Below, piece after piece: positions 173 through 44,712 of a DNA stretch of 64,000 bases (within the stretch, counting starts at the first letter, position 1; the number at the start of each line of letters is the position of its first letter). The notes beneath the pieces are model-generated. The model was not told the DNA's origin. It made no database searches and saw nothing but the letters and a program-made list of their open reading frames with translations. The position numbers were made by a program, and so were the translations under genes. This DNA comes from Clostridia bacterium (GTDB taxonomy: Bacteria; Bacillota; Clostridia; Christensenellales; QALW01). The stretch is from the NCBI GenBank assembly GCA_017502165.1, contig JAFVVO010000030.1, forward strand, positions 1 to 64,000, read 5' to 3'.

Positions 173-514
173 GAGTTGATTTTGCGATAATTTTGATGAT
201 TTGTATTTTAATTATTGCTTTTCTTTTTGCGAATTACTATAAATGCAACGCCTGCCGCAATGACAACTACTGCTATGGGAAGTGTAATCCAAAGAATAAT
301 ATTTCCGTTGCTTTCGTTTGAGGGGGTATTATCGTCCTTGGGGGCGCTACCGTTATTTTGTGCGCCGTCACTGTTTGGTGTAGCCGAATCGTTATCGGGC
401 ACTATAGGTGTAGCCGAATCGTTATCGGGAACGATAGGGGTGGAGTCGTTATCAGGCGTGTCGGGAGTGGTTGCTCCTGCGGATTTTGCCGTTAAGGTGT
501 AGATACTGAAGTGG
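173..514. repeat. Long direct repeat, copy 1 (3' end of surface protein gene)
   Basis: This stretch is almost identical at DNA level to 2003-2342. It covers the shared C-terminal 100 or so codons of two neighbouring surface protein genes and about 30 bases beyond the stop codon. Within it a 24-base unit coding PDNDSATP-type peptides is repeated in tandem. Identity ends abruptly upstream of the shared FSIYTLTAK segment, which points to recent duplication or gene conversion. Confidence 0.85.
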
Positions 515-1818: not shown

Positions 1819-1904
1819 AATGATTCTCCTCAAATTGATCTTATCCATATATTATAACAGAATTAACAAAAAAGCAACACAGTACAGCAAAATTTCTCTT
1901 TTAA

Positions 1905-1954
1905 TACAAAAAAATATGGACACGCCATTAAGGAAAATCCAAAATAACGTGTCC
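1905..1954 (-). terminator. Possible terminator after surface protein B
   Basis: Arms GGACACG (1918-1924) and CGTGTCC (1948-1954) flank a 23-base loop. On the minus strand the stem is followed by a T-rich run. The loop is long, so this is a moderate call. Confidence 0.45.
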
Positions 1955-2002
1955 GGCTTTTTAAGTGTTAAATTTTAAATTCAGGTCTTTTTTATAAAAG
2001 AG

Positions 2003-2342
2003 AGTTGATTTTGCGATAATTTGATGATTTGTATTTTAGTTATTGCTTTTCTTTTTGCGAATTACTATAAATGCAACGCCTGCCGCAATGACAACTACTG
2101 CTATGGGAAGTGTAATCCAAAGAATAATATTTCCGTTACTTTCGTTTGAGGGGGTATTATCGTCCTTGGGGACGCTACTGTTATTTTGTGCGCCGTCACT
2201 GTTTGGTGTAGCCGAATCGTTATCGGGAGCTATAGGTGTAGCCGAATCGTTATCGGGAGCGATAGGTGTGGAGTCGTTATCAGGCGTGTCGGGAGTGGTT
2301 GCTCCTGCGGATTTTGCCGTTAAGGTGTAGATACTGAAGTGG
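2003..2342. repeat. Long direct repeat, copy 2 (3' end of surface protein gene)
   Basis: This is the partner of 173-514, with only scattered substitutions. It encodes the linker, transmembrane helix and basic tail of the second surface protein, and the identity also runs past the stop codon. Confidence 0.85.
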
Positions 2343-3814
2343 TCGGTTTCAAAGACGGCAAAACCGTTTTTAACAGTTACGTTGTATGCGGTTACTTTTC
2401 CGTTGGCGTCAACGTAGTAAACCACTAATTCTCTGCCCTTGTATTCCTTGGGAATGGGGAGCTGAACCTTGAATTTGCCGTTTTTAAGCTTGGTGATGTA
2501 GTCGTCAATAGAGCCTGAGAAAAGCTCGATATCAAACATTTCGTTATCGTTTATTTTAAGAACACCGCAAATTCTGTCGTGTTCTTTACCGTTTGAAATT
2601 CTGTCAACTCTGATAACTGCGTCTAAAGGTACCTCGGAAGAATCGGTGGAAACGGATACGTTGGTGTTAATATCAACGTTGTTGTAACTGGGGACGGAAA
2701 GCTTGGAATCGTCTTTGATAATTACGAACTTGTGCGTTTCGTTCTTGCCTGCAAACTTTACGTTGAAAATGAATCTTCCGACTGCATCCTTCATAAAGGG
2801 ATAGTCCTTATCTACAGAGGCGGATTCATCAATGAAGCCTTCTATCGAATTTTCATAATTTGAAATATCTGAACCGGATAAGAAAATCTTGGTTTCAAGA
2901 TCGGAAATCAGGGAAGTGTCCTGAATAGCGGGGTCTTTTGCCTTTTCAGCATCAATGATTGCCTGATATTCGGCATTTTTCTGTTTAATTGCAGCAAGTT
3001 GACTCCTCAATTCTGCTATTTGACTTTCGTAATACTGAGCAACCGTTTCACCGGAGAAGGAGACGGTGGCTGCGTTTTTGCCTAAATAATCGTCGATACG
3101 TTTTTGAGCCGCGTTTATAAGAGCATTTTTGTTGTCGGGAGTATTTTCAGGAACGTAAATAACGTGGTTAGCGTATACAAATATTTCTGAGTTGTCGTAT
3201 GGACCCCAGATATGATAAGTAGTGTCTCGATGATTCAACATTGAAAAGCCAAGGCGTTGTTTTGAGAAGGGCATATCAGCACCGGCACGCGTGTCGAATT
3301 TAATGGAGAAGTTAACGTTTCCTATTGCTTCTTTTAACTCACTTGAATAATTGCCCATTTCGTCGGGTCTTTCGGCATCAGCCTTGTTGTGATATAAATA
3401 ACTAATGAACTCAAGGTCTTTAAGATAGAAGCTTTTAGGAATCTTTTTAACGATTTCCTGTGCTTTTTTCTGTACGTTTTTGTCGTAATTCCAAACAACG
3501 TCAACCGTGTGTTCTTCGTCGCCCAGGCTTGCATCTACCTTGGAAAGATCCTTGGAGAAGGCTGGTTTGCCGTTACTATCGTGAAGATAGTAGGAATTTG
3601 CCGTATCTTCGAAAAGATCTGCAAGCATTCCAACATAAGCATCGTCGTTGCCGGTTGGTTTTGCAAAGTTTAATACAAGCTTACCGTTAGTAAGACCTTT
3701 TTTGAATTCTTCACTCATTTTGCTGTCAGCATAGACGGAGGTGGTGATGGCTGAAACAGAAAACAGCGTTGCCAAAACCAATAAAACGGAGAGTAGTTTT
3801 CTTAAGTGCTTCAT
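2036..3814 (-). CDS. Membrane-anchored surface protein, paralogue B
   Basis: This 592-residue paralogue of the 208-1818 product has a signal peptide (residues 1-30, ending near SVYADS). Its N-terminal region resembles paralogue A (MSEEFKKGLTNGKLVLNF against MSENFKRVLNNNGELEFNW). It differs by a Lys/Gln/Ala-rich segment around residues 260-300 that looks like a coiled coil, absent from A. The C-terminus has the same HFSIYTLTAK module, a PDNDSATP repeat linker, one membrane helix and the KKKSNN tail. ATG 3814 is preceded by AGGTAGGA and a good promoter at 3860-3888. No known domain is recognised, and no enzymatic motif is visible. A surface adhesin or sensor role is only a guess. Confidence 0.8.
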   Translation of the reverse strand: MKHLRKLLSVLLVLATLFSVSAITTSVYADSKMSEEFKKGLTNGKLVLNFAKPTGNDDAYVGMLADLFEDTANSYYLHDSNGKPAFSKDLSKVDASLGDEEHTVDVVWNYDKNVQKKAQEIVKKIPKSFYLKDLEFISYLYHNKADAERPDEMGNYSSELKEAIGNVNFSIKFDTRAGADMPFSKQRLGFSMLNHRDTTYHIWGPYDNSEIFVYANHVIYVPENTPDNKNALINAAQKRIDDYLGKNAATVSFSGETVAQYYESQIAELRSQLAAIKQKNAEYQAIIDAEKAKDPAIQDTSLISDLETKIFLSGSDISNYENSIEGFIDESASVDKDYPFMKDAVGRFIFNVKFAGKNETHKFVIIKDDSKLSVPSYNNVDINTNVSVSTDSSEVPLDAVIRVDRISNGKEHDRICGVLKINDNEMFDIELFSGSIDDYITKLKNGKFKVQLPIPKEYKGRELVVYYVDANGKVTAYNVTVKNGFAVFETDHFSIYTLTAKSAGATTPDTPDNDSTPIAPDNDSATPIAPDNDSATPNSDGAQNNSSVPKDDNTPSNESNGNIILWITLPIAVVVIAAGVAFIVIRKKKSNN

Positions 3815-19856: not shown

Positions 19857-19885
19857 TGAGGAATTAGAGTAATATAATAAAAAAA
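19857..19885 (+). promoter_or_regulatory. Promoter of the Leu T-box unit
   Basis: TTGACA (19857-19862) is followed after 17 bases by TAATAT (19880-19885); TATAAT also occurs at 19883-19888 with a 20-base spacer. It starts 18 bases after the amidohydrolase stop. Confidence 0.75.
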
Positions 19886-19894
19886 TAAATGCGA

Positions 19895-20145
19895 AGAAGA
19901 TATTAAGTGCTGACAATGAGTGCTTTCAGAGAGTTGCTGGTTGGTGTGAAGCAATAGACTGTGTTTGCGCTGTCTCGTATCAGAGCAGAACCTCGGAAAT
20001 TCAGTAAGAGGCTTCGGGAGGTCCCGTTACAGACCAAAGGTTTGATAGAACCTGCTAAGTGGCTTTTTGTAAGCAATACGGGTGGTACCGTGGTTGATAT
20101 TATCAATCATCCCGCAAAGATTGATTTCTTTGCGGTTTTTTTTAT
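19895..20145 (+). promoter_or_regulatory. T-box riboswitch, predicted leucine specifier (CUC)
   Basis: This untranslated leader has the T-box landmarks in order. A K-turn-like base of stem I pairs TGC(19900-19902)/GCA and GATA(19909-19912)/TATC. These are followed by CAGAGAG (AG bulge, 19927-19933), the apical GGTTGGTG, the specifier loop, the T-box GGGTGGTACCG (20080-20090), and a terminator with stem 20112-20120/20127-20135 plus a T-run. By my manual fold the specifier triplet is CTC (19974-19976), directly before a purine and the TATC helix, so it should read uncharged tRNA-Leu. TGGT fits an ACCA tRNA end. It controls the LeuA-like gene and the ligase fusion. Confidence 0.88.
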
Positions 20146-20191: not shown

Positions 20192-21556
20192 ATGAAAAAA
20201 ATTACAGTATCTGACGTTACGTTCTGTTCATTGGCTGAGGAAAAGCAAGCTCTGTCCTTCAGAGAAAAGCTAAACGTTGCAGACTGCCTTGATGCTTGCG
20301 GAGTTGATAATATTGAACTTCCCGTTTTCGATAACGATAAGGAGACGGCGGTAGTTTATAAGACTATTGCTTCTGCAGTTAAAAATGCTTGCGTTACCGT
20401 TTTAATTGATTGCGCGGAAAAGGCTGCCTTTGCATCTGAAACTGTTAAAAATGCAAGCAAGAGTGCAGTTGCGGTTTGCTTGCCCATTTCAACGGTGCAG
20501 ATGGAATATCAGTATCACTTAAAGGCAAGCGCTATGCTTGAAAAAATTGCAGGCGCCTGCGCGGATGCTAAAAAGTATTCCGAAAGCGTTGATTTTATTG
20601 CCAAGGACGCAACGAGAGCAGATGCTAAGTTCGTTGTTGAGTGCGCTGCCGTTGCCAAGGAAAACGGAGCAACGTCAATTACAGTTTGCGACGATAACGG
20701 CACGTTCTTCCCTGAGGAGCTTGCGGATTTAGTAAGCAAAATTAAGGCTATCGGTGATATTTTGGTATTCGTTCAGCCCTCTGACAATCTTAAGATGGCG
20801 GCGGCTTGCGCTATTTCTGCTATTAAAGCAGGGGCGGACGGCATTAAAACGGGTATTGTGAATAAAAACCTTACGGCAGACGTGCTTGCGGATATTCTTC
20901 GAGCTAAAGGCGAGGATTTAGGCGTTACAAGCGCTTTGGATTCAACGAAGATTCATCACAAAATAAGCCAGACCGAGAGTATTGAAACAGGCAAGGCTTC
21001 TGCCGAAGCAGATGGTGCGCTTTTGACGGCAGACAGCACCATTGCTGACGTTGCGGCGGCGGCTGAAAAGCTTGGTTATGAGCTTACCAGCGAGGATAAC
21101 GGCAAGGTGTATGAGGAATTTAAGCGTGTTTGTGCAAAGAAATCCTCTATCGGCGCAAGAGAGCTTGAAGCAATTATTGCCACAAGCGCTATGCAGGTGC
21201 CTTCAACCTTCCATTTGGTAAACTACGTTGTTAACAGCGGTAATATTATTACTGCTACTGCCAATATCACTTTAGAGAGAAACGGCGAAAAAATAAGCGG
21301 CGTAAGCACGGGTGACGGTCCTATTGATGCGGCTTTCCACGCTATTGAGCAGATAGTTGGCCATCATTATGAGCTTGACGATTTCCAGGTTCAGTCAGTT
21401 ACAAAGGGTAGGGAAGCGGTTGGCTCATCTCTTATCCGTCTTCGTGCTGACGATGGAAAGCTTTATTCCGGCAACGGTATTTCTACAGATATTATAGGTG
21501 CTTGTCTGCGCGCATATATAAACGCTCTTAACAAAATTGTGTACGAGGAAAACTAA
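20192..21556 (+). CDS. LeuA-like protein with degenerate catalytic site and intact regulatory domain
   Basis: This 454-residue protein resembles the isopropylmalate/homocitrate synthase family. The start is ATG 20192 (GAGGT upstream); longer frames run into the T-box. The N-terminal HMGL-like barrel (about 5-290) keeps the fold signals but not the chemistry. Where active enzymes have DTTLRDGEQ it has DVTFCSLAE (8-16), and the metal-binding HxHND strand is replaced by VQPSDN (194-199). The C-terminal LeuA dimer/allosteric domain (about 330-454) is well kept, with VSTGDGPIDAAFHAI and GNGISTDIIGACLRAYINAL. I infer a non-catalytic leucine sensor or partner protein rather than a working synthase; an unusual activity remains possible. 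It sits under the Leu T-box, two bases before the ligase fusion. Confidence 0.8.
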   Translation: MKKITVSDVTFCSLAEEKQALSFREKLNVADCLDACGVDNIELPVFDNDKETAVVYKTIASAVKNACVTVLIDCAEKAAFASETVKNASKSAVAVCLPISTVQMEYQYHLKASAMLEKIAGACADAKKYSESVDFIAKDATRADAKFVVECAAVAKENGATSITVCDDNGTFFPEELADLVSKIKAIGDILVFVQPSDNLKMAAACAISAIKAGADGIKTGIVNKNLTADVLADILRAKGEDLGVTSALDSTKIHHKISQTESIETGKASAEADGALLTADSTIADVAAAAEKLGYELTSEDNGKVYEEFKRVCAKKSSIGARELEAIIATSAMQVPSTFHLVNYVVNSGNIITATANITLERNGEKISGVSTGDGPIDAAFHAIEQIVGHHYELDDFQVQSVTKGREAVGSSLIRLRADDGKLYSGNGISTDIIGACLRAYINALNKIVYEEN

Positions 21557-21557
21557 A

Positions 21558-24017
21558 ATGAAATTTGCATTTTCTACTGAAAACGTTTCAGCCAATTCCT
21601 TTTTGGAATTGTGCAATAAAACTGCTGAATATGGGTTTTCCGCTTTTGAAATCTTCGATGCTACGGGTGAAAAGGCGAGTCACAGAGACAGTATTTTTAA
21701 TCCTGACGTAACGGCTGATTCAAAGCGCAAGCTTGTAAACAGACATATTGAGGTTTGCGCTATCTGCTGTGAGGAAACGGTTAAAGGCGACGCAAACGGT
21801 GAAAAAATAAGCGATTGTGTTTCTTTGGCGGCTTCAACGGGCATCAGCGCAGTTGTAATCAGGTTTGAGGAAATACCCGAAAACGAAAAGATGAACGAAA
21901 TTCTTGCGCCTGCAATTAAGCTTGCGGAGCAGTTCGACGTTTCGATTTTGCTTGAAACGGTAGGTCCCTTAGCAAAAACAAAAAAGGTGCTTGAAATTAT
22001 TAATTTCTTTGCAACGGCAACTCTTGGTGTTTGCTGGAATATAAGAGAAACCTTCTTTGCGGCTAACGAGACGGCGGACGAGACTATACAGAATCTGGGC
22101 GCATATATTCAGTACGTCAGAATCGGTGACAGAAAAGGCGGCAAAAACGTGCTTATCGGTGACGGCGAGCTTGACGTTAAGGAATTTATGAATGCTCTTA
22201 AATCCCTTAACTACGACGGCTACGTTTGCGTTGATTGGAACGACGAAATTACCAATGCGGATATTGTTTTGACGCATTTCGTGACCTTTATGAAGAAAAA
22301 TTCTCCCGATAAAAAGGTACCTAAGGAAATTTATTATAACCGTTCAAAAACGGGCACGTTCCCTTGGAAAAAGTATGACGTGCTTGATATTACCTTCTCC
22401 CAGGTGCTTGACGAAATGGTTGAAAGATATCCTGACCAGTACGCGTTCAAATATACTACCCTTGATTACACGAGAACTTATTCTCAGTTCCGTGATGACG
22501 TTGATAAGGCGGCCGCGGCACTTATTTCTTTAGGTGTTAAGCCCGGCTATCACGTTGCTATCTGGGCAACGAACGTACCCCAATGGTTTATTACCTTCTG
22601 GGCAACGGTTAAAATCGGCGCGGTTTTGGTTACGGTAAATACCGCTTATAAAATTCACGAGGCGGAGTATCTGCTTCGTCAGTCCGATACGCATACACTT
22701 GTTATGATCGAGTATTGCAAGGATTCTAATTATAAGGAAATCGTACAGGAGCTTTGCCCTGAGCTTGCTTCTATTGAAGCGGGAAAACCTCTTTACTCCA
22801 AGAAATTGCCTTTCCTGCGTAACGTTATTACTGTTGGTTTTAATATGGACGGTTGTCTTGAATGGGACGATTTTGTTAAGCGCAGTGACCTTGTGCCGCA
22901 AGAAGAAGTGCGCCGTCGTGCTTCAAAAGTACATACTGACGACGTTTGCAATATGCAGTACACTTCAGGCACTACGGGATTCCCCAAGGGCGTAATGCTT
23001 ACCCACAACAATATAATCAATAACGGCAAGATTATCGGTGACAGAATGGATATTTCCACCTGCGACAGAATGATGATTCAGGTGCCGATGTTCCATTGCT
23101 TCGGTATGGTGCTTTCTATGACTAACCTGATGACTCACGGCGGAACAATTTGTCCTATGCCGTATTTCTCACCAAAATCCTCTCTTGCTTGCATTAACGA
23201 CGAAAAGATTACCTGCTTTAACGGCGTTCCCACAATGTTTATTGCGATGTTTAACCACGCCGATTTTGCAAAGACGGATTTTTCACATATTCGCACGGGT
23301 ATTATGGCAGGCGCAAACTGTCCGCCCGAGCTTATGCGCAGAGCCGCAAAAGAAATGAATATGACGGAAATAATAAGCGTTTACGGACAAACAGAGGCTT
23401 CTCCCGGCTGCACCATGGGCGAGGTTAATGAAGACCTTGACCACCGCGTTGAGACCGTAGGAAGCGCTTTCCCCGGTGTAGAATGCAAGATAATTGATCC
23501 TGAAACGGGTGAAGAGCTGCCCGACGGTGAAAACGGTGAATTTGTTGCCAGAGGCTATAACATTATGAAGGGATATTATAAGATGCCCAAGGCAACGGAG
23601 CAGACTATTGACAGCCAGGGCTGGCTTCACAGCGGTGATATTTGCTGCCGTACTCCCGACGGATATTACAAGGTAACGGGCAGATTGAAGGATATGATTA
23701 TTCGCGGAGGCGAAAACCTTTATCCGAGAGAGATTGAAGAGTTTTATCTTACTCACGACAAGGTGCGCGACGTTCAGGTTGTGGGCGTTCCCGATGAGCG
23801 TTACGGGGAAGAGGCCTGCGCGTGGATTATTCTTAAAAAGGGTGAGACTGCTGACGAAAATGAAATGCGCGCCTACGGTGAAGCTCATATGGCAAAGCAC
23901 AAGGTGCCCAGATACTTTATCTTTGCCAATGAATTCCCAATGAATGCGGCAGGTAAAATCCTTAAGTACAAGATGCGCGAGGAATCAATAGAAATTTTGA
24001 AAATTTCAAAAAAATAG
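21558..24017 (+). CDS. Fusion of a sugar-isomerase-like TIM barrel with an AMP-forming acyl-CoA ligase
   Basis: This 819-residue two-domain protein has residues 1 to about 270 like xylose-isomerase/AP-endonuclease-2 TIM barrels (FLELCNKTAEYGFSAFEIFD, then YIQYVRIGDRKGG and GDGELDVKEFMNALKSLNYDGYV). Residues about 280-815 are an acyl-CoA ligase with the P-loop YTSGTTGFPKG, YGQTEASPG, the Asp of LHSGDICCR, GRLKDMIIRGGENLYP and the catalytic Lys in AAGKILKYK. It would activate a carboxylate to acyl-CoA through an acyl-adenylate. Given the Leu T-box, isovalerate is the predicted substrate. ATG 21558 is preceded by GAGGA and follows the LeuA-like stop by one base. The fused barrel's role is unknown. 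The stop directly abuts the -35 of the next promoter. Confidence 0.85.
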   Translation: MKFAFSTENVSANSFLELCNKTAEYGFSAFEIFDATGEKASHRDSIFNPDVTADSKRKLVNRHIEVCAICCEETVKGDANGEKISDCVSLAASTGISAVVIRFEEIPENEKMNEILAPAIKLAEQFDVSILLETVGPLAKTKKVLEIINFFATATLGVCWNIRETFFAANETADETIQNLGAYIQYVRIGDRKGGKNVLIGDGELDVKEFMNALKSLNYDGYVCVDWNDEITNADIVLTHFVTFMKKNSPDKKVPKEIYYNRSKTGTFPWKKYDVLDITFSQVLDEMVERYPDQYAFKYTTLDYTRTYSQFRDDVDKAAAALISLGVKPGYHVAIWATNVPQWFITFWATVKIGAVLVTVNTAYKIHEAEYLLRQSDTHTLVMIEYCKDSNYKEIVQELCPELASIEAGKPLYSKKLPFLRNVITVGFNMDGCLEWDDFVKRSDLVPQEEVRRRASKVHTDDVCNMQYTSGTTGFPKGVMLTHNNIINNGKIIGDRMDISTCDRMMIQVPMFHCFGMVLSMTNLMTHGGTICPMPYFSPKSSLACINDEKITCFNGVPTMFIAMFNHADFAKTDFSHIRTGIMAGANCPPELMRRAAKEMNMTEIISVYGQTEASPGCTMGEVNEDLDHRVETVGSAFPGVECKIIDPETGEELPDGENGEFVARGYNIMKGYYKMPKATEQTIDSQGWLHSGDICCRTPDGYYKVTGRLKDMIIRGGENLYPREIEEFYLTHDKVRDVQVVGVPDERYGEEACAWIILKKGETADENEMRAYGEAHMAKHKVPRYFIFANEFPMNAAGKILKYKMREESIEILKISKK

Positions 24018-24059: not shown

Positions 24060-24325
24060 AATATAAAAGCTATGACGAAGACGGATTCGGTATACGTTTT
24101 TCAGAGAGTTGGGCGTTGGTGCGAGCCCGATAAACAAGTTCCGAGATTCCTATCACTTCTGAGCTGAAGGCCCGAAAACAATCGTTAGTAGACGCCTTTC
24201 GTGATTGCTGCGTAAATGCATACGGCTTAGTGGAGCCTGAGTGGCACGTTTAGTGCAATTTGAGTGGTACCGCGGGTATTGTTTTTCAAGACTCGTCTCA
24301 AAGATTGAGACGGGTCTTTATTTAT
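24060..24325 (+). promoter_or_regulatory. T-box riboswitch, predicted isoleucine specifier (AUC)
   Basis: The leader has stem I with a K-turn (GAAG pairing CTTC), CAGAGAG, GTTGGTG and the T-box AGTGGTACCGCGGG (24263-24276). The intrinsic terminator has arms CGTCTCA (24294-24300) and TGAGACG (24306-24312), then a T-rich run. The triplet just before A and the CTTC helix is ATC (24152-24154), an isoleucine codon. Its 3' half is strikingly similar to the next T-box (26672-26945), so the two arose by duplication. It controls the 24350-26617 ligase. Confidence 0.9.
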
Positions 24326-24349: not shown

Positions 24350-26617
24350 ATGGAAAACAACTCAACATTAGCAAGATTGACGGAGATTTCTGCGCGAATT
24401 AAGGAGATGCGCGAAATTATGGGCTTTTCTGTGCAGGAAATGGCAGAAAAGGCAGAAGTTTCTATTGATGCGTATCTTGATTACGAAAGCGGAAAAGCAG
24501 ATATTCCTTTTACGTTTATTCATAAGTGCGCCCTTGCTTTTGATGTAGAGCTGACCGAGCTTCTTGAGGGTCACGGAGCAAGACTTTCAAGCTATACTAT
24601 AACCCGAGCAGGCAAGGGACAGATAACTGCTCAAGAAGACGGTATTGAAATCAGAAACCTTGCTCCTAAATTCAGGGATAAAATTGCCGAGCCTCACTGG
24701 GTTCGATATGAATATTCCGCAACGCAGCAGAATAAGCCTATTCACTTAACAAAGCATAGCGGTCAGGAATTTGACCTTGTGTTAAGCGGAAGCCTTAAGG
24801 TTCAAATTGGCGAGCACGTTGAGGTGCTTAATGAGGGGGACAGTATCTATTATAACAGCTCTACTCCTCACGGTATGATTGCAATCGGCGGTAAGGACTG
24901 CGTTTTCTGCGCAGTTGTTCTTCCCGGAGAGGATACTAAAGAGGAAGAGGTTGGCCAGAGCATTGTTTCCGCAAAATCTCGGCAGAAGCTTATTTGCGAA
25001 AAGTTTGTTGATTGCGTTGAGGATGAAAACGGCGCGTTAAAGGATATTAAGTTCAAAAATACTGATACCTTTAACTTCGGATTTGATATAGTTGACGAGA
25101 TTGCAAATAAATATCCCGATAAAAAGGCTATGGTTTACGTGGATAAAAACCATAACGAGAGAATTTTTACCTTTAAGGATATTAAGAAGGCTTCTAACCA
25201 GTGCGCTAACTATTTTGCGTCCCTTGGCATCAAAAAGGGCGACAAGGTTATGCTGGTGCTTAAGCGCCATTATCAGTTCTGGTTCTCAATGGTTGCTCTT
25301 CATAAGCTTGGCGCAGTAGCAATTCCTGCAACTAATCAGTTAAAGGAGCACGATTTTGAGTACCGCTTTAATGCGGCAGGTGTTAAGGCAATTATTTGTA
25401 CTTCTGACGGTGACACGGCTCAGATTGCGGAAAATGCCGCTAATAACTGTCCTCAGGTTGAGGTTAAGGTGCTTGTGGGCGCCGAAAGAGACGGTTGGCA
25501 CGACTTTGATAAAGAGTTTACCCGCTTTTCAACGCATTTTAACCGTACGGAAGATACTTCCGCAGGTGACGATGCGGCACTTATGTTCTTTACCTCGGGT
25601 ACAACGGGTAATCCCAAAATGGCCTGCCACAGACATACTTACGCTTTAGGCCATTTTGTTACTGCAAAATATTGGCATTGCTGTGAAAGAGACGGCTTAC
25701 ATTTTACAATTTCGGATACCGGCTGGGGTAAATCTCTTTGGGGTAAGCTTTACGGTCAGTGGCTCTGCGAGGGCGCAGTATTCGTTTACGACTTTGACCG
25801 TTTTGATGCGGCAGACATACTTCCTATGTTTGCAAAATATCAGATAACAACCTTCTGTGCACCTCCCACAATGCTTAGAATGTTCATAAAAGTCGATTTG
25901 AGCAAGTACGATTTGTCTTCAATTCATCACATGACAACTGCAGGTGAGGCGCTTAACCCTGAGGTTTACAGACAATTTAAGGCTGCAACCGGCCTTGAAA
26001 TTATGGAGGGCTTCGGTCAGACGGAAACTACCCTTACTATTTGTAATCTTGTGGGTACCGTTCCCAAAATCGGTTCAATGGGTAAGGCGTCGCCTCAATA
26101 TGACGTTGACGTGGTTGATGATGACGGCAACTCCGTTGCAACGGGTGAAACCGGTGAAATCGTTATCCGAACGGATAAAACCGTTCCTTGCGGACTGTTT
26201 AAGGAGTACTATCTTAACCAAGAGCTTACCGATGAAGCCTGGCACGACGGAATGTATCACACGGGTGACACTGCCTGGCGCGATGAAGACGGATATTTCT
26301 GGTACGTTTCCCGTAAGGATGACGTTATCAAGTCTTCCGGATATCGCATAGGTCCCTTTGAAATTGAAAGCGTTATTATGGAGCTTCCTTACGTTTTGGA
26401 ATGCGGTGTTTCTGCGGCTCCTGATGAGATTCGCGGTCAGGTTGTTAAGGCAAGCATCGTTTTGACAAAGGGTACGGAAAAGACGGAAGAGCTTAAGAAA
26501 GAGATACAGGCTTACGTTAAATCTCACACTGCGCCGTATAAGTATCCCAGAATTATAGTTTTCTGCGATGAGCTTCCCAAAACCATCAGCGGAAAGATCC
26601 AAAGGAATAAACTGTAA
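24350..26617 (+). CDS. HTH-cupin-acyl-CoA ligase fusion, isoleucine-controlled copy
   Basis: This is a 755-residue three-domain protein. Residues about 16-72 form an XRE-type helix-turn-helix (IKEMREIMGFSVQEMAEKAE, then VSIDAYLDYESGKADIP). Residues about 115-192 form a cupin (HSGQEFDLVLSGSLKVQIG, EGDSIYYNSSTPHGM). Residues about 240-755 form an AMP-forming ligase with TSGTTGNPK (415-423), GFGQTE, TGDTAWRDEDGY, SSGYRIGPFEIE and the catalytic Lys in TISGKIQRNK. The ligase part resembles medium/short-chain acyl-CoA synthetases. Sitting alone under an Ile T-box, it is predicted to activate 2-methylbutyrate. HTH-cupin pairs normally occur as free regulators; here they may sense the product or tether the enzyme to DNA. 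ATG 24350 follows AGGAG. Confidence 0.88.
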   Translation: MENNSTLARLTEISARIKEMREIMGFSVQEMAEKAEVSIDAYLDYESGKADIPFTFIHKCALAFDVELTELLEGHGARLSSYTITRAGKGQITAQEDGIEIRNLAPKFRDKIAEPHWVRYEYSATQQNKPIHLTKHSGQEFDLVLSGSLKVQIGEHVEVLNEGDSIYYNSSTPHGMIAIGGKDCVFCAVVLPGEDTKEEEVGQSIVSAKSRQKLICEKFVDCVEDENGALKDIKFKNTDTFNFGFDIVDEIANKYPDKKAMVYVDKNHNERIFTFKDIKKASNQCANYFASLGIKKGDKVMLVLKRHYQFWFSMVALHKLGAVAIPATNQLKEHDFEYRFNAAGVKAIICTSDGDTAQIAENAANNCPQVEVKVLVGAERDGWHDFDKEFTRFSTHFNRTEDTSAGDDAALMFFTSGTTGNPKMACHRHTYALGHFVTAKYWHCCERDGLHFTISDTGWGKSLWGKLYGQWLCEGAVFVYDFDRFDAADILPMFAKYQITTFCAPPTMLRMFIKVDLSKYDLSSIHHMTTAGEALNPEVYRQFKAATGLEIMEGFGQTETTLTICNLVGTVPKIGSMGKASPQYDVDVVDDDGNSVATGETGEIVIRTDKTVPCGLFKEYYLNQELTDEAWHDGMYHTGDTAWRDEDGYFWYVSRKDDVIKSSGYRIGPFEIESVIMELPYVLECGVSAAPDEIRGQVVKASIVLTKGTEKTEELKKEIQAYVKSHTAPYKYPRIIVFCDELPKTISGKIQRNKL

Positions 26618-26671: not shown

Positions 26672-26945
26672 TAAAAGGCTTTGACGAAGAGTACATTCGG
26701 CAAATTCCATTCAGAGAGACGGCGGTTGGTGTAAGCCGTTTGGATAGTCCGTTTGTTTGTAGCTTCTGAGCCGGAAGGAAGAAAGAGCTTTGGCTTAAGT
26801 AGAACCTTCCCGTGATTGCTGCGTAAATGCATAAGGCTTAATGGAGCCTGAGGGGCACGGAGTAATGTCTGTGCAATTTGAGTGGTACCGCGGGTGATTT
26901 GGCTCGTCTCAAAGTAATCATATCTTTGAGACGGGCTTTTATTGT
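26672..26945 (+). promoter_or_regulatory. T-box riboswitch, predicted valine specifier (GUA)
   Basis: The leader has the K-turn and basal helix (GAAG/CTTC, GGC/GCC), an AGTA box, CAGAGAG, GGTTGGTG and the T-box AGTGGTACCGCGGG (26881-26894). A long terminator has arms 26901-26914 and 26924-26936. The triplet preceding G and the CTTC helix is GTA (26759-26761), a valine codon. It heads the ligase-ilvE-oxidoreductase operon. GUA is a less usual valine specifier than GUC, so the exact frame of the specifier deserves a structural check. Confidence 0.85.
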
Positions 26946-26973: not shown

Positions 26974-29265
26974 ATGAAAACTGCCACAGGTCTTGAGTTC
27001 AAAATCTCACAAATGGCGCAACGAATTAAAACCTTGCGCGAAATTGTGGGACTTTCACAAAAAGAAATGGCTGATAAAACCGGCGTCAGCGAGCAGGAAT
27101 ACATTGCTTGCGAAGCGGGGCAGAGCGATCTTAACTTTGCATTTTTGTATAAATGCGCTCTCGCTCTTAACGTTGACGTAACTGACATTATAGAGGGCTC
27201 AAGCCCCCGATTAGCAGGTTATACGGTTACACGCTCAGGGGAAGGTCAGGAAATTCAGAAAGCACACGGAATGACTTATTATAACTTGGCGGCGTCATTC
27301 AGAAACCGTATTGCCGAGCCTTTATACGTTGTTTTGAATTTTGATGAGGCGGCTCAGGGTAAGGATATTGAGCTTACTACTCACGAGGGTCAGGAATGTG
27401 ATATCGTTGTAAGCGGCGCTCTTAAAATTCAAGTGGGGGACCACGTTGAAATTCTCCACGAAGGCGACAGTATTTATTACAACAGCTCAATGCCGCACGG
27501 TATGGTTGCAGTTGAGGGTCAGGATTGCGTTTTCTACGCTTTTGTTCTTAATGCGCCAAGCGATGCAAAGCTTGTTCACGGCGGCGTACGTGACGTGGAA
27601 TTTGCTCCCATAAAAAAGAAGGAAAAGACCGCACAGCATATCTGGGAGGATTTTGTTATTCCTCAGGAAAACGAAAAGGGCGTGCTTGAAGCAATTTCAT
27701 TTAAGAATGAAGAAAAGTTCAATTTTGCCTTTGACGTTATTGATAAAATAGGCAGAGAACAGCCCGATAAGCTGGCAATGCTTCATATTGATATTAACAA
27801 AAACGAACGCAGAATTACCTTTGGTGAGCTTAAGAGAGCTTCGTCACAGACGGCAAACTACTTTAAGTCCTTAGGAATTAAAAAGGGCGACAGGGTAATG
27901 CTTATTCTTAAACGCCATTATCAGTTCTGGTTTGCAATGCTTGCTCTTCATAAAATCGGAGCAGTAGCAATTCCTGCTACTAACCAGCTGAAAGAGCACG
28001 ATATTACTTACCGTTTCAACAAAGCGGGCGTAAAAATGATTATCTGTACTTCCGACGGCATTGTTGCTGACGAGGTTGATAAGGCAGTTTTACACAGCCC
28101 CTCGGTTGAAACCAAGATTATCGTTGGTGCAGACCGTGACGGCTGGCATAACTTTGACGAAGAATATAATCTTTATACGGGCAAGTTTGAGCGTGATGAA
28201 AATTCACCCTGCGGAAACGATTTGATGCTGATGTATTTTACTTCCGGTACAACGGGCAATCCGAAGCTTGCAATGCACGATTTTAGATATCCCTTAGGTC
28301 ATTTTATTACTGCAAAGTATTGGCACTGCGTAAATTCAGACGGTTTGCATTTAACCGTTGCGGACACCGGCTGGGCAAAGGCTGCCTGGGGTAAGCTTTA
28401 CGGACAGTGGCTTTGCGAAGCGGCGATTTTCGTTTATGATTTCGACCGTTTCGACGCAAACGACATTCTTCCCATGTTCGCAAAATACGGCATTACAACC
28501 TTCTGTGCACCGCCTACGATTTTGCGTATGATGGTTAAGCAGGATATTTCAAAGTTTGATTTATCTTCCATCGAGCATATGACTACTGCAGGTGAAGCGC
28601 TTAATCCCGAAGTTTTCAAGCAATTCGAAAACGCTACGGGCTTGCAGATTATGGAAGGCTTCGGACAGACTGAAACTACAGTTGCTCTTGCAAACCTTGC
28701 AGGAACGAAGTCAAGACTTGGCTCAATGGGTAAACCCGTTCCGCTTTATGATATTAAACTTGTTGATTCGGAAGACAAACCCGTTGCGGTAGGTGAGGTT
28801 GGCGAAATCGTATTTAATATTTCTGACGGCGCTCCTTGCGGATTGTTCAAGGGCTATTACACCGACGAGGAAAAGACGGCAGAGTGTTATCACGATGGCT
28901 ATTATCACACGGGCGACACCGCTTGGCGCGATGAGGACGGATACTTCTGGTACGTTGGCCGAGTTGATGACGTTATTAAGTCTTCAGGATACAGAATAGG
29001 TCCTTTTGAAATCGAAAACGTTATCATGGAGCTTCCTTACGTTTTAGAGTGCGGCGTTTCTGCTGAGCCCGACGAGGTTCGCGGTCAGGTTGTTAAAGCA
29101 AGCATTGTGCTTGTTAACGGAACAGAAAAGACCGATGAGCTTAAGAAGGAAATTCAGGAATACGTTAAACAGCGCACAGCGCCTTATAAATATCCACGAG
29201 TTGTTGTGTTCAGAGATGAGCTTCCCAAAACAACAAGCGGTAAGATTCAAAGAAATAAATTGTAA
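26974..29265 (+). CDS. HTH-cupin-acyl-CoA ligase fusion, valine-controlled copy
   Basis: This 763-residue paralogue of the 24350-26617 product has the same order: XRE helix-turn-helix (about 15-72, IKTLREIVGLSQKEMADKTGV), cupin (about 115-195, EGDSIYYNSSMPHGM) and AMP-forming ligase (about 240-763, TSGTTGNPK, GFGQTE, TGDTAWRDEDGY, the Lys in TSGKIQRNK). ATG 26974 is chosen because GGAGGAAAG precedes it; longer frames run back through the T-box terminator. As first gene of a Val T-box operon that also encodes a transaminase and a 2-oxoisovalerate-type oxidoreductase, it is predicted to activate isobutyrate to isobutyryl-CoA. The substrate is inferred only from context. It is followed 16 bases later by ilvE. 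Confidence 0.88.
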   Translation: MKTATGLEFKISQMAQRIKTLREIVGLSQKEMADKTGVSEQEYIACEAGQSDLNFAFLYKCALALNVDVTDIIEGSSPRLAGYTVTRSGEGQEIQKAHGMTYYNLAASFRNRIAEPLYVVLNFDEAAQGKDIELTTHEGQECDIVVSGALKIQVGDHVEILHEGDSIYYNSSMPHGMVAVEGQDCVFYAFVLNAPSDAKLVHGGVRDVEFAPIKKKEKTAQHIWEDFVIPQENEKGVLEAISFKNEEKFNFAFDVIDKIGREQPDKLAMLHIDINKNERRITFGELKRASSQTANYFKSLGIKKGDRVMLILKRHYQFWFAMLALHKIGAVAIPATNQLKEHDITYRFNKAGVKMIICTSDGIVADEVDKAVLHSPSVETKIIVGADRDGWHNFDEEYNLYTGKFERDENSPCGNDLMLMYFTSGTTGNPKLAMHDFRYPLGHFITAKYWHCVNSDGLHLTVADTGWAKAAWGKLYGQWLCEAAIFVYDFDRFDANDILPMFAKYGITTFCAPPTILRMMVKQDISKFDLSSIEHMTTAGEALNPEVFKQFENATGLQIMEGFGQTETTVALANLAGTKSRLGSMGKPVPLYDIKLVDSEDKPVAVGEVGEIVFNISDGAPCGLFKGYYTDEEKTAECYHDGYYHTGDTAWRDEDGYFWYVGRVDDVIKSSGYRIGPFEIENVIMELPYVLECGVSAEPDEVRGQVVKASIVLVNGTEKTDELKKEIQEYVKQRTAPYKYPRVVVFRDELPKTTSGKIQRNKL

Positions 29266-29281
29266 TTAGGAGATAGATGTT

Positions 29282-30361
29282 ATGAAATACGAAATTAAAA
29301 TAACTAAGACAACTTGTCCTAAGGAGCGTCCTCAGGACGAATCAAAGCTTGGCTTCGGCAGAGTATTTACCGACCATATGTTTATTATGGATTATTCCGA
29401 CGAACAGGGCTGGTATAACGGCAGAATCGTTCCTTTTGGTCCTTTGGAAATTCACCCCGCTTCAACCGTGCTTCACTACGGCGCAGAAATTTTTGAGGGT
29501 ATGAAGGCTTACCGCGGTGCAACGGGCGAGATTTGTATGTTCAGACCTATGGAGAACATTAAGCGTCTTAATAACAGTGCTGAGCGTCTTTGCCTTCCTC
29601 AGCTTGACGAAGAGGGCTGTCTTGATATTTTGAAGACCTTAGTTGAGCTTGAAAAGGATTGGGTACCCAGAGCAGACGGAACTTCACTTTATCTCCGTCC
29701 TTACATGTTCGGTAACGATCCTCACCTTGGCGTACACGCAGTACACAGAGCAACCTTCGTTGTTATCTGCTCACCCGTTGGCGCTTATTATGCAGAGGGT
29801 ATTAACCCCGTTAAGATTGCTATTGAGTCTCAGGACGTTCGCGCAGTACGCGGCGGAACCGGTTATGCAAAATGCGGCGGTAACTATGCAGCAAGCCTTC
29901 GCGCAGGCGAAAGAGCTGAAAAGAACGGCTATACTCAGGTGCTTTGGCTTGACGGTGTTGAGAGAAAGTATATTGAAGAAGTTGGCAGCATGAACGTTAT
30001 GTTCAAGGTTAACGGAAAGATTATTACTCCTGCACTTACCGGCTCAGTTCTTCCCGGCATTACAAGAAAATCTTGTATTGAGCTTCTTAAGGAGTGGGGA
30101 TACGAGGTTGAAGAAAGACTCTTCAGCGTTGACGAGCTTTTCGAAGCTGCTGAAAACGGCACATTAGAGGAAGCATGGGGAACGGGTACTGCTGCAGTTG
30201 TTTCTCCCATTGGTCATCTTTTCTATAACGGCAAGGAATATACTGTTTCCAATAACAAAATTGGAGCTTTAACTCAGAAGCTTTACGATAACCTTACTGC
30301 AATTCAGTGGGGTAAGGCAGAGGATAAGCATTCCTGGCTTGTAAAAGTTTGCAATGGATAA
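29282..30361 (+). CDS. ilvE: Branched-chain amino acid aminotransferase
   Basis: This 359-residue fold-type IV PLP enzyme interconverts valine, leucine and isoleucine with their 2-oxoacids, using glutamate/2-oxoglutarate. Recognisable segments are LHYGAEIFEGMKAYRG near residue 60, the RPYMFGNDPHLGV stretch, the Schiff-base Lys in GGTGYAKCGGNYAASL (about residue 202) and TGSVLPGITRKS. The length fits the long (eukaryote-like) BCAT subgroup common in Clostridia. GGAG precedes ATG 29282. In this operon it would aminate the 2-oxoacids made by the downstream oxidoreductase. Confidence 0.93.
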   Translation: MKYEIKITKTTCPKERPQDESKLGFGRVFTDHMFIMDYSDEQGWYNGRIVPFGPLEIHPASTVLHYGAEIFEGMKAYRGATGEICMFRPMENIKRLNNSAERLCLPQLDEEGCLDILKTLVELEKDWVPRADGTSLYLRPYMFGNDPHLGVHAVHRATFVVICSPVGAYYAEGINPVKIAIESQDVRAVRGGTGYAKCGGNYAASLRAGERAEKNGYTQVLWLDGVERKYIEEVGSMNVMFKVNGKIITPALTGSVLPGITRKSCIELLKEWGYEVEERLFSVDELFEAAENGTLEEAWGTGTAAVVSPIGHLFYNGKEYTVSNNKIGALTQKLYDNLTAIQWGKAEDKHSWLVKVCNG

Positions 30362-31022
30362 GCGCAAGAGATTATATATTATTGCAGGTCATTACGGTAG
30401 CGGAAAAACAAATATCGCAGTTAATTTGGCTCTGAAATTAAAAAGTGAAGGGCTGAATACGAAAATTGTCGATTTAGATATTGTTAATCCCTATTTCAGA
30501 ACAAAGGATAGCGCAAAGGTTTTGGAAGAGGCGGGAATTGAATTGATTTCACCTGCCTTTGCCAACACAAACGTTGACCTTCCTGCTCTTCCCAAAGAGG
30601 TTTACGGCGTTGTTCAAGCAAGGGATTGCTACGGAGTTATTGACGTGGGCGGTGATGACCGAGGTGCTTATGCCCTTGGCAGATATGCTCCCGAAATTTT
30701 AGAGGAAAATAATTTCGAAATGTGTTTTGTTGCTAACTTCTACCGCCCGTTAACCAAGACTGCCCAAGAGGCCCTTGAGGTTATGCGTGAGATTGAAGAA
30801 GCCTGCAAAATAAAGTTTACTGCAATAATTAACAATTCTAACCTTGGATGCGAAACTACCGAGGAAACAGTAATCAGTACCCTTGAAAAAGCAAAGGAGC
30901 TTTGCGAGCTTTCGGGGCTGCCGTTATTGTTTAATGCAGTTGAAAAAGGTATTAAAAACGTTCCCGACAGCTTTAATTTAGAGCTTCAGGAAAAATATTA
31001 CGATATAAAGGAGTCAAAATAA
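30354..31022 (+). CDS. P-loop nucleotide-binding protein of the VOR operon
   Basis: This 222-residue ATPase or GTPase of the SIMIBI/ParA-like class has a P-loop GHYGSGKTN near residue 14, a DLDIVNPYFRTKD segment like the switch region, IDVGGDDRGAYAL as a Walker B-like strand and an NNSNLG base-binding-like turn. It has no DNA-binding or membrane domain. It overlaps ilvE by 8 bases and touches the ferredoxin subunit gene, so it is firmly inside the operon. The family has no firm function that I know of. A role in assembly or activation of the oxidoreductase is plausible from position only. Confidence 0.8.
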   Translation: MDKRKRLYIIAGHYGSGKTNIAVNLALKLKSEGLNTKIVDLDIVNPYFRTKDSAKVLEEAGIELISPAFANTNVDLPALPKEVYGVVQARDCYGVIDVGGDDRGAYALGRYAPEILEENNFEMCFVANFYRPLTKTAQEALEVMREIEEACKIKFTAIINNSNLGCETTEETVISTLEKAKELCELSGLPLLFNAVEKGIKNVPDSFNLELQEKYYDIKESK

Positions 31023-31261: not shown

Positions 31262-32323
31262 ATGGCAGAAAAAGTTTTAATGAAAGGTAACGAAGCAATC
31301 GCTGAGGCTGCTATTAAAGCAGGTTGCCGTCTTTATTTCGGCTATCCCATCACTCCTCAGACTGAAATCGCCGCTTATATGGCAAAGCGTATGCCCAAAA
31401 TCGGCGGTACGTTCCTTCAGGCTGAAAGTGAGGTTTCAGCAATAAATATGGTTTACGGAGTTGCAGGAGCCGGTTTCAGAGTTATGACATCTTCTTCAAG
31501 CCCCGGAATTTCTCTTAAACAAGAAGGTATTTCCTACATTGCAGGCGCTGATTTACCTGCGCTTATTGTTAACGTTCAGCGCGGCGGCCCCGGCTTAGGC
31601 GGTATTCAGCCTTCACAGTCGGACTATTTCCAGGCTACCAAAGGCGGCGGTCACGGCGATTATCATTTAATCGTTCTTGCACCTGCTTCCGTTCAGGAAA
31701 TGGCAGACCTTACTATTAAGGCATTCGACCTTGCTGATAAGTACAGAGTACCTACAATGCTTCTTGCTGACGGCACAATGGGACAGATGATGGAGCCTGT
31801 TGAATTACCTGAAACTACCTCTGAACCCGTTGAAAAGCCTTGGGCTGTTACGGGAACAAAGATGCAGAGAAAGCATAACATTATTAACTCACTTTATCTT
31901 AACCCCGAATTACTTGAGAAAACTAACTTCGAAAGATTTGAGCGTTATAAGCAAATCGAGCAGAACGAAGTTATGTTTGAAGAGTATATGATGGACGATG
32001 CAGAGTATTGCGTTGTTGCCTTCGGTATTGCGGCACGTGTTTCTAAAAACGCTGTTACAGCCGCAAGACGCAAGGGAATTAAGGTTGGCTTAATTCGTCC
32101 TATAACTCTTTGGCCTTTCCCCGTAGACGTGCTTAAAAAGGCTGCAGATAAGGTTAAGGGCTTTGTTTCCGTTGAGCTTTCAATGGGACAGATGATTGAG
32201 GATATCAAGCTTGCTACCGAGTGCCGCAGACCCGTTGTGCTTTGTAACCGTAGCGGCGGTATGATTCCTACACCTGAGCACGTGCTTGAAACAATAGAAA
32301 ATCTTGCAAAGGAGAACAAATAA
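31262..32323 (+). CDS. vorB: 2-oxoacid:ferredoxin oxidoreductase, alpha subunit (VorB-like)
   Basis: This 353-residue PorA/VorB-like subunit has the pyrimidine-binding and central domains of TPP-dependent oxidoreductases. Recognisable stretches are GNEAIAEAAIKAGCRLYFGYPITPQTEIAAY at the N-terminus (the family's YPITP signature), AGAGFRVMTSSSSPGISL, VNVQRGGPGLGG and a C-terminal domain with SVELSMGQM. The branch closest in features is 3-methyl-2-oxobutanoate or 2-oxoglutarate ferredoxin oxidoreductase; the ilvE and Val T-box context favours 2-oxoisovalerate. Physiologically the enzyme can run as a reductive carboxylase on branched acyl-CoA. Confidence 0.88.
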   Translation: MAEKVLMKGNEAIAEAAIKAGCRLYFGYPITPQTEIAAYMAKRMPKIGGTFLQAESEVSAINMVYGVAGAGFRVMTSSSSPGISLKQEGISYIAGADLPALIVNVQRGGPGLGGIQPSQSDYFQATKGGGHGDYHLIVLAPASVQEMADLTIKAFDLADKYRVPTMLLADGTMGQMMEPVELPETTSEPVEKPWAVTGTKMQRKHNIINSLYLNPELLEKTNFERFERYKQIEQNEVMFEEYMMDDAEYCVVAFGIAARVSKNAVTAARRKGIKVGLIRPITLWPFPVDVLKKAADKVKGFVSVELSMGQMIEDIKLATECRRPVVLCNRSGGMIPTPEHVLETIENLAKENK

Positions 32324-33078
32324 TGAAAGTGTTTGAAAAACCAAAAGCTTTGACAGATGCACCTTTCCATTATTGCCCCGGTTGCACACACGGCATTATT
32401 CATCGCCTTGTAGCAGAAGCTATTGACGAGCTGGGCATTGAGGGCAATACAATCGGTGTTGCACCCGTTGGCTGTGCAGTTATGGCATACGATTATTTTG
32501 CTTGCGACATGGTAGAAGCGGCTCACGGAAGAGCTCCTGCTATTGCTACTGGTCTTAAGCGCGCAATGCCCGATAATATTATCTTTACATATCAGGGCGA
32601 CGGTGACCTGGCTTCCATCGGTATGGCAGAAACCGTTCACGCGGCAACGAGAAACGAAAATATTACTATTATCTTTGTTAACAACGCTATTTACGGTATG
32701 ACCGGCGGTCAGATGGCTCCTACGTCACTTCCCGGTCAGGTAACCCAGACCTCTCCTTACGGCAGAGACCTTTCTAATCAGGGTTATCCCATCAGAGTCA
32801 GCGAGCTTCTTGCTTCACTTGACGGCCCCGAATATATTGAGCGTGTTGCGGTTAACAACGTTAAAAACGTTAGAAACGCTAAGAAGGCTATTCTTAAGGC
32901 GTTCAAGAATCAGACCGAGAAAAAAGGCTTCTCTTTAATTGAAGTTGTTTCATCTTGTCCTACAAACTGGGGTATGACTCCTCAGAAGGCTCTTGAATGG
33001 GTAGAGGAGAAAATGATTCCTTATTATCCTTTGGGTGTTTATAAGGACAGAAGCGCTGAAAATAAGGAGGAAAAATAA
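32323..33078 (+). CDS. 2-oxoacid:ferredoxin oxidoreductase, beta (TPP-binding) subunit
   Basis: This 251-residue subunit binds thiamine pyrophosphate. It has the YCPGCTHG cluster/entry motif near residue 16 and the TPP motif GDGDLASIG followed about 25 residues later by NNAIYGMTGGQ. It has no ferredoxin domain, consistent with the separate delta subunit. The start shares a base with the alpha-subunit stop. Substrate choice within the family (2-oxoisovalerate, 2-oxoglutarate, indolepyruvate) cannot be read securely from sequence; context favours branched 2-oxoacids. Confidence 0.9.
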   Translation: MKVFEKPKALTDAPFHYCPGCTHGIIHRLVAEAIDELGIEGNTIGVAPVGCAVMAYDYFACDMVEAAHGRAPAIATGLKRAMPDNIIFTYQGDGDLASIGMAETVHAATRNENITIIFVNNAIYGMTGGQMAPTSLPGQVTQTSPYGRDLSNQGYPIRVSELLASLDGPEYIERVAVNNVKNVRNAKKAILKAFKNQTEKKGFSLIEVVSSCPTNWGMTPQKALEWVEEKMIPYYPLGVYKDRSAENKEEK

Positions 33079-33079
33079 T

Positions 33080-33616
33080 ATGACTACACAGATTCTTATT
33101 GCTGGCTTCGGCGGACAAGGCGTTTTATTTGCAGGTAAGTTTATTGCTTATAAGGGACTTGTTGAGGGCAAGGAGTTAAGCTGGTTGCCTTCTTACGGCC
33201 CCGAAATGCGCGGCGGTACTGCTAACTGCAGTGTTATTCTCAGCGACGAACCCGTTGGCTCACCAATCGTTTCCGAGCCCGACGTTTTGATGGTTATGAA
33301 CCTTCCTTCACTTGATAAGTATGAAAATGCTGCAGTAAAGGGCGCAAGCATCTTTGTTGACAGCACGTTAATCGGACGTAAGGTTGTTCGCGACGACGTA
33401 AAGGCATTTTATATTCCTGCTACTCAGATGGCTATTGACGCAGGCGTTCCTACTCTTGCCAATATGATTATGGTTGGTAAAATGCTTAAGGAAACAGGCG
33501 TGCTTTCCTTCGAAAACACTGTTGAAACCTTAAAGAAAATCGTATCTGCAAAGCGCGCAGAGCTTTTGGATATGAATATTAAGGCTCTTGAAGCAGGCTA
33601 TAATTACAAAGGCTAA
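33080..33616 (+). CDS. 2-oxoacid:ferredoxin oxidoreductase, gamma subunit
   Basis: This 178-residue PorC/VorC-like subunit opens with ILIAGFGGQGVLFAGK, the Rossmann-like glycine loop of the family that contacts CoA. It then has LPSYGPEMRGGTANC, the typical gamma-subunit stretch. ATG 33080 follows AAGGAGG; a start 45 bases upstream would overlap the beta gene without a ribosome site. It is the last gene of the Val T-box operon and is followed by a terminator. Confidence 0.9.
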   Translation: MTTQILIAGFGGQGVLFAGKFIAYKGLVEGKELSWLPSYGPEMRGGTANCSVILSDEPVGSPIVSEPDVLMVMNLPSLDKYENAAVKGASIFVDSTLIGRKVVRDDVKAFYIPATQMAIDAGVPTLANMIMVGKMLKETGVLSFENTVETLKKIVSAKRAELLDMNIKALEAGYNYKG

Positions 33617-44662: not shown

Positions 44663-44671
44663 TTCTATCAC

Positions 44672-44712
44672 CAATAGAATTATACTAAAAAATAGTAGAT
44701 TTATCAATAGAA
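44672..44712. promoter_or_regulatory. Direct-repeat operator candidate for the AraC regulator
   Basis: CAATAGAA occurs at 44672-44679 and 44705-44712, starting 33 bases apart (about three helical turns), each preceded by a similar ATCA stretch. The second copy lies just upstream of the -10 (TATAAT 44731-44736) of the glycyl-radical enzyme gene, which lacks a good -35. Confidence 0.5.
44679..44707 (-). promoter_or_regulatory. Promoter of the AraC regulator gene
   Basis: On the minus strand, TTGATA (44702-44707) and TATAAT (44679-44684) have a 17-base spacer. Confidence 0.7.

Follow-up and report, generated by a model that had tools for sequence, protein, structure and literature searches.

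A LeuA-derived pseudoenzyme as a candidate leucine-feedback subunit of a TIM-fused acyl-CoA ligase in Clostridia

What does a LeuA homologue with a degenerate catalytic site do in an operon behind a leucine T-box, next to an acyl-CoA ligase? This question is raised by one gene in a stretch of 64,000 nucleotides from a Clostridia bacterium (contig JAFVVO010000030.1), the whole of which is referred to here as the window. A preliminary description of the DNA had suggested that the product, here named pseudo-LeuA, may act as a leucine-sensing partner of the ligase rather than as isopropylmalate synthase. The operon contains the following features.

19885-20117, + strand: T-box leader with Leu specifier CUC at 19974-19976 (RF00230, 101.4 bits)
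20192-21556, + strand: pseudo-LeuA coding sequence, 454 amino acids, ATG at 20192, stop codon at 21554-21556 (Pfam and NCBIfam profiles, relatives)
20192-20941, + strand: degenerate DRE-TIM (HMGL-like) barrel of pseudo-LeuA (alignment with genuine LeuA; AF2 pLDDT about 95 over the barrel)
21155-21538, + strand: LeuA_dimer (allosteric leucine-binding) domain of pseudo-LeuA (Pfam; profile alignment to Mycobacterium tuberculosis LeuA)
21558-24017, + strand: acyl-CoA ligase fused behind a xylose-isomerase-like TIM barrel (TIM part 21558-22367; Pfam AP_endonuc_2 and AMP-binding), predicted isovalerate-CoA ligase
24063-24303, + strand: T-box leader with Ile specifier AUC (under the Rfam gathering score)
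24350-26617, + strand: HTH-cupin-acyl-CoA ligase, MbcS-like, predicted 2-methylbutyrate-CoA ligase (Pfam/NCBIfam, T-box specifier)
26672-26914, + strand: T-box leader with Val specifier GUA (Rfam, specifier)
26974-29265, + strand: second HTH-cupin-acyl-CoA ligase, MbcS-like, predicted isobutyrate-CoA ligase (Pfam/NCBIfam, specifier)
29282-30361, + strand: IlvE, branched-chain aminotransferase (PRK13357, 479.6 bits, cut-off 307)
30354-31022, + strand: ParA/CobQ-like P-loop NTPase, recurring in these operons (sequence, by eye; recurrence)
31262-33616, + strand: 2-oxoacid:ferredoxin oxidoreductase (KOR), alpha (31262-32323), beta (32323-33078) and gamma (about 33080-33616) subunits (by eye; recurs beside ligases)

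Lost catalytic site and conserved regulatory domain

Pseudo-LeuA contains an HMGL-like region (residues 17-221, 83 bits, Pfam) and a LeuA_dimer domain (PF08502, residues 322-449) that scores 108.1 bits against a gathering score of 24.9. With the LeuA equivalog model TIGR00973 it reaches 205.9 bits, the curated cut-off being 598.7, and every NCBIfam LeuA model scores it far under its own curated cut-off. Its AF2 model has a pLDDT of 90.7, and the top PDB matches of this model in Foldseek are M. tuberculosis LeuA entries, the leucine-bound 3fig among them.

The replacement of the motif DTTLRDGEQ by DVTFCSLAE and of HxHND by VQPSDN, both noted earlier, holds when the protein is aligned with genuine LeuA (residues 8-16 and 194-199, respectively; n = 20, including one row, L108, that is in the wrong reading frame). 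Residue roles were taken from M. tuberculosis LeuA (PMC2704214), whose Zn/ketoacid ligands D81, H285 and H287 correspond to S13, Q195 and S197 in the window protein. All 19 genuine LeuA of the order (L108 left out) have both histidines, while none of 50 pseudo-LeuA sequences has either; Asp at the D81 position is present in 19/19 and 2/50, respectively. Moreover, deletions in 50/50 pseudo-LeuA have removed two elements of the acetyl-CoA groove, the GxGERxG loop and all of the first linker subdomain (subdomain I, with M. tuberculosis H379/Y410), which explains their shorter length (454 versus about 510 amino acids in the window protein and LeuA, respectively). As several defining features of the enzyme are missing, pseudo-LeuA is not an isopropylmalate synthase. 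Judged by sequence, it is a LeuA homologue in which a bona fide, intact LeuA allosteric domain persists after loss of the Zn/ketoacid site, of subdomain I of the linker and of the GxGERxG loop. We therefore regard it as a pseudoenzyme, a LeuA paralogue no longer able to make isopropylmalate, with the leucine-binding/dimerisation domain kept.

The good preservation of this C-terminal domain had been proposed before and is borne out at the level of single residues. The M. tuberculosis leucine-site positions map to G374, G376, I378, D379, L395, F398, S402, A409 and G411 (profile alignment to 1sr9/3fig), and at these positions nearly all 50 pseudo-LeuA agree in residue type with genuine LeuA from the order, except at Tyr554. 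The latter position is Phe in 50/50 pseudo-LeuA, and also in 3/19 genuine LeuA, so affinity or ligand could differ. The conservation pattern is reversed relative to genuine LeuA: the regulatory domain is the conserved part in pseudo-LeuA (65% identity versus 39% for the barrel), the corresponding values being 42% and 59% among genuine LeuA (n = 20, L108 included). Close pseudo-LeuA pairs show dN/dS below 1, lower in the dimer domain than in the barrel (for example, 0.054 versus 0.128 for L058/L061), indicating purifying selection.

When 396 genomes of the order were searched with a profile, full-length pseudo-LeuA scored above 400 bits in about 54 of them (G058 counted from a contig-edge fragment adjoining the fused ligase), whereas genomes with genuine LeuA only stayed below 285 bits. 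Fifty sequences were taken into the alignment, tree and conservation analysis. In the tree they group together as a single clade (SH-aLRT 99), with genuine LeuA beside it. This single clade, together with the lack of metal-site histidines in all 50 members, indicates that catalysis was lost once, early, and that the gene was retained; since the whole clade shares the losses, the degeneration is no local accident. A scan of public genome collections revealed at least 561 relatives, of which the best 80 come mostly from Clostridia/Oscillospiraceae MAGs of gut and rumen, with four from Spirochaetales. In the Spirochaetales/Sphaerochaetaceae MAGs L140, L158, L162 and L174, pseudo-LeuA is accompanied by a TIM protein or TIM-ligase; horizontal transfer or mis-binned contigs are likely there. 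In a literature search, we found no description of the pseudo-LeuA family, of a LeuA-derived regulatory pseudoenzyme or of its pairing with such a ligase.

The gene could in principle be a functionless leuA remnant in decay, as might be suggested by the disappearance of every catalytic group from the protein, in a genome that lacks the remaining pathway. This has hardly any credibility left, being already refuted by an open frame and a single origin in 50 genomes of many families, dN/dS below 1 and the conserved regulatory domain. A pseudogene or a sequencing error is ruled out by the intact frame, the 50 conserved relatives, the single clade and purifying selection.

Leucine supply in the host genome and T-box specificities

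The preliminary description had called for a search for a bona fide leuA elsewhere in the genome. Profile searches of this 96%-complete draft (PF00682 and TIGR00973 for leuA) detected none; ilvC and ilvD were also absent and no leuB or leuC was recognisable, so that the usual pathway context (leuBCD, ilvCD) is lacking. Of the aconitase family, only a PRK11413 hydratase is encoded; the Iso_dh family is represented by dehydrogenases of tartrate and isocitrate. Two other HMGL-like genes were considered as LeuA and rejected, their identities by eye being Re-citrate-synthase-like and oxaloacetate decarboxylase alpha. The one that looks like Re-citrate synthase (L001:1333-2739, G000:C42) has intact TFRDGQQ and HGHND motifs, and none of the NCBIfam models matched it at 1e-50.

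Of the 54 genomes of the order with pseudo-LeuA, 1 also has true LeuA, as compared with 93 of the 342 that lack pseudo-LeuA (Fisher p = 4e-6, shared ancestry ignored). Restricting the comparison to fused-ligase genomes gave p = 5e-7, again ignoring shared ancestry. Both leucine routes seem to be present in G279. Six pseudo-LeuA genomes (G001, G066, G068, G103, G141 and G364) have ilvD matches with E values of 1e-97 to 1e-114, under the bulk of IlvD scores, which were taken as other dehydratases. The earlier argument that a working LeuA is not needed if leucine is made from isovalerate is thus well supported by the missing leuA, ilvC and ilvD and by the 1/54 co-occurrence; LeuA would be absent because leucine is made by that route.

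Leucine synthesis from isovalerate has been known since the 1960s in rumen anaerobes, ruminococci among them, and its formation by carboxylation is classical for the ruminococci (Allison 1962, 1966, cited in PMC7356843). The route resembles the pathway predicted here in its activation, reductive carboxylation and transamination steps. In the literature that we found on it, little concerns genes and control, and nothing names these genes or a LeuA-like partner.

The leucine T-box previously described ahead of pseudo-LeuA is real, with the score and specifier given above. Each specifier in the window precedes the pairing partner of the 5' side of stem I, as read from the sequence. The three window T-boxes gave a spacing rule (codon, 6 nt, GAG), by which the specifiers of relatives were then read. 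All readable T-boxes before pseudo-LeuA (32/32) have a Leu specifier, and those before MbcS-like ligases specify Ile (6) or Val (7). According to Wels et al., specifiers agreed with gene function wherever this was verified, and in some bacteria a T-box stands before real leuA as well (PMC2494555). In two loci (L045 and L051), a pair of T-box antiterminator cores separated by about 250-310 nt precedes pseudo-LeuA, apparently as tandem T-boxes.

Staphylococcus aureus MbcS activates 2-methylbutyrate and isobutyrate, and isovalerate poorly (PMC10026030). It is the best NCBIfam match of the two HTH-cupin ligases, under the equivalog cut-off, and differs from them in feeding fatty-acid synthesis and in lacking the HTH-cupin extension. 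The ligase paired with pseudo-LeuA is PRK12583-like and falls in a different branch. As the HTH-cupin ligases are MbcS-like and MbcS is poor on isovalerate, this substrate is left for the partner ligase, which probably activates it to isovaleryl-CoA. From sequence and operon context, KOR is predicted to work as a reductive carboxylase. The HTH-cupin part of the ligases at 24350-26617 and 26974-29265 may be a built-in regulator, and such fusions recur in many relatives. The NTPase gene at 30354-31022 recurs beside KOR and IlvE genes in many loci.

The partner ligase

The gene at 21558-24017, which starts 1 nt past the pseudo-LeuA stop codon, had been described as an acyl-CoA ligase. It is one, although the description has to be refined: a partly degraded AP_endonuc_2 TIM barrel is fused to the AMP-binding ligase. 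The AMP-binding motifs are intact, including an invariant YTSGTTGFPKG and the C-terminal GK. An active isomerase in the TIM part is ruled out by the metal ligands, which are not constant among relatives and have disappeared from the window protein (N161, R163/E164, R188, W227). Many genomes of the order also have free-standing TIM proteins of about 270 aa (for example, G036:C1:793815-794621), close kin of the ligase N-terminal barrel; in many genomes the profile match to these frames spans an apparent stop codon.

The association of pseudo-LeuA with this ligase, on which the preliminary description was built, turned out to be invariant. The fused ligase lies directly downstream of pseudo-LeuA in 49/49 loci and in 79/80 loci from the best 80 of at least 561 public relatives (128/129 in all), the one exception being at a contig end. 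The converse does not hold: in about 30 genomes of the order the fused ligase occurs by itself, in most cases preceded by a Leu T-box (for example, L190, L195 and L207 among L189-L208), and 14 of these genomes have true LeuA. In the ligase tree, carriers and non-carriers of pseudo-LeuA separate with two changes. Pseudo-LeuA is therefore better described as an accessory (regulatory) subunit, dispensable for ligase activity as such, and the reading as an obligate subunit of the ligase is weakened. An accessory protein present only with its target, the target being able to occur alone, is the pattern that would be expected of a regulatory subunit.

A search of the 129 loci for a fusion of the pseudo-LeuA and ligase genes, which would be Rosetta-stone evidence of contact, found none. 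In a mirror-tree analysis, the partial r between the pseudo-LeuA barrel and the TIM part given the ligase was 0.37, modest beyond the shared background.

Proposed control of the isovalerate route and alternative readings

Since the leucine-binding part of a dead LeuA is kept and always found beside a probable isovalerate ligase, this protein is probably now the leucine sensor of another pathway. Our main reading, to which we give a probability of roughly 0.6, is that pseudo-LeuA is a leucine-binding feedback subunit of the isovalerate-CoA ligase, repurposed from LeuA. It would form a complex with the TIM-fused ligase, which would convert isovalerate to isovaleryl-CoA; ferredoxin-dependent reductive carboxylation by KOR and transamination by IlvE would then yield leucine. 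When abundant, leucine would bind the LeuA_dimer domain and the ligase would be restrained, a feedback at the first committed step like that of leucine on real LeuA, while the Leu T-box would tune transcription by tRNA-Leu charging. We infer the substrate of the ligase, the binding of leucine, the physical contact and the direction of this control from comparative evidence, from which leucine binding with action on the ligase emerges as the best-supported inference.

Pseudo-LeuA might instead be a structural or assembly partner, or the sensor of another ligand. It would then steady the ligase or dock it onto KOR and IlvE, channelling isovaleryl-CoA, and its LeuA_dimer domain would mainly dimerise or sense a branched compound other than leucine, such as 2-ketoisocaproate. 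In line with this are the strict adjacency to the ligase, the fixed Tyr-to-Phe change in the pocket, the frequent presence of KOR and IlvE in one operon with pseudo-LeuA and the additional role of the LeuA dimer domain as a dimer interface. We nevertheless consider it unlikely: the positions ascribed to leucine binding and feedback are retained, the ligase manages without pseudo-LeuA in other genomes and the T-box is leucine-specific in 32/32 cases. A leucine sensor could also act on other targets, such as the HTH-cupin ligases and KOR, often encoded in the same locus, or a transporter. The TIM-ligase is, however, the sole constant neighbour, and many loci lack the others in the vicinity, which leaves this alternative a very slim chance.

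In the barrel, residues M104, Y106, K111, D139, R142 and G170 are invariant in 50/50 pseudo-LeuA and D167 is found in 48/50, at the usual active-site side; some glycines are also kept. With M104, Y106, K111, D139, R142 and some glycines conserved, the barrel may still bind something, and such a set would not be required of a pure scaffold, which counts against the main reading. It could be argued that the barrel runs another, metal-independent reaction via the D139/R142/K111/Y106 cluster, in which K111 is characteristic of the family, and purifying selection on the barrel would agree with this. A new enzyme of this kind is improbable, however, given that all LeuA metal and acetyl-CoA groups are gone, that the barrel is only 39% identical within pseudo-LeuA (1.4 substitutions per site on average) with the ligase far more constrained, and that the pathway has no unfilled step. 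Known DRE-TIM metallolyases also require the divalent metal.

Pseudo-LeuA shares with LeuA (PF00682 and PF08502; M. tuberculosis 1sr9/3fig) the order of barrel, linker subdomain II and LeuA_dimer, the fold and the leucine-pocket residues. In contrast to LeuA, besides the losses and the reversed conservation reported above, it sits in the predicted isovalerate route and not in the isopropylmalate route. As a kind, pseudo-LeuA resembles known pseudoenzyme regulatory subunits. HisZ is a dead HisRS paralogue that regulates HisG, and IlvN/IlvH are likewise regulatory subunits. In all these cases a non-catalytic protein is placed beside, or works with, a biosynthetic enzyme and has an actual or proposed end-product site. 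However, HisZ and IlvN/IlvH belong to other fold families, and the putative target of pseudo-LeuA is a ligase unrelated to the LeuA reaction.

The interpretation offered in the preliminary description thus stands in part: by cross-genome comparison, it is well supported as regards catalytic death, the kept leucine pocket, the obligate pairing with the ligase and a LeuA absent since leucine comes from isovalerate; the TIM barrel of the ligase and its occurrence without the partner refine it. With odds somewhat better than even, we propose more specifically that a LeuA pseudoenzyme was recruited as a dedicated leucine-feedback subunit of a structurally unrelated, TIM-fused isovalerate-CoA ligase, end-product control being carried from the lost isopropylmalate route to the isovalerate route. 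In the gene set of this locus, the RNA leaders spell out specificities, each branched-acid ligase standing behind a T-box of its own for Leu, Ile or Val. The locus also supplies an aminotransferase, a 2-oxoacid oxidoreductase and a candidate allosteric controller whose catalytic half has decayed. If the proposal is true, feedback regulation has moved between two unrelated pathways to one amino acid, and the gene would be a marker for bacteria that rely on their neighbours' branched-chain fatty acids in gut and rumen.

Two further features of the window were recorded. A glycyl-radical-enzyme-like protein and its activating enzyme are encoded at 44756-47769, divergent from an AraC-like regulator (43871-44707). 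At 208-3814, on the - strand, two tandem paralogous secreted proteins have near-identical C-terminal tails with PDNDSATP repeats and a membrane anchor.
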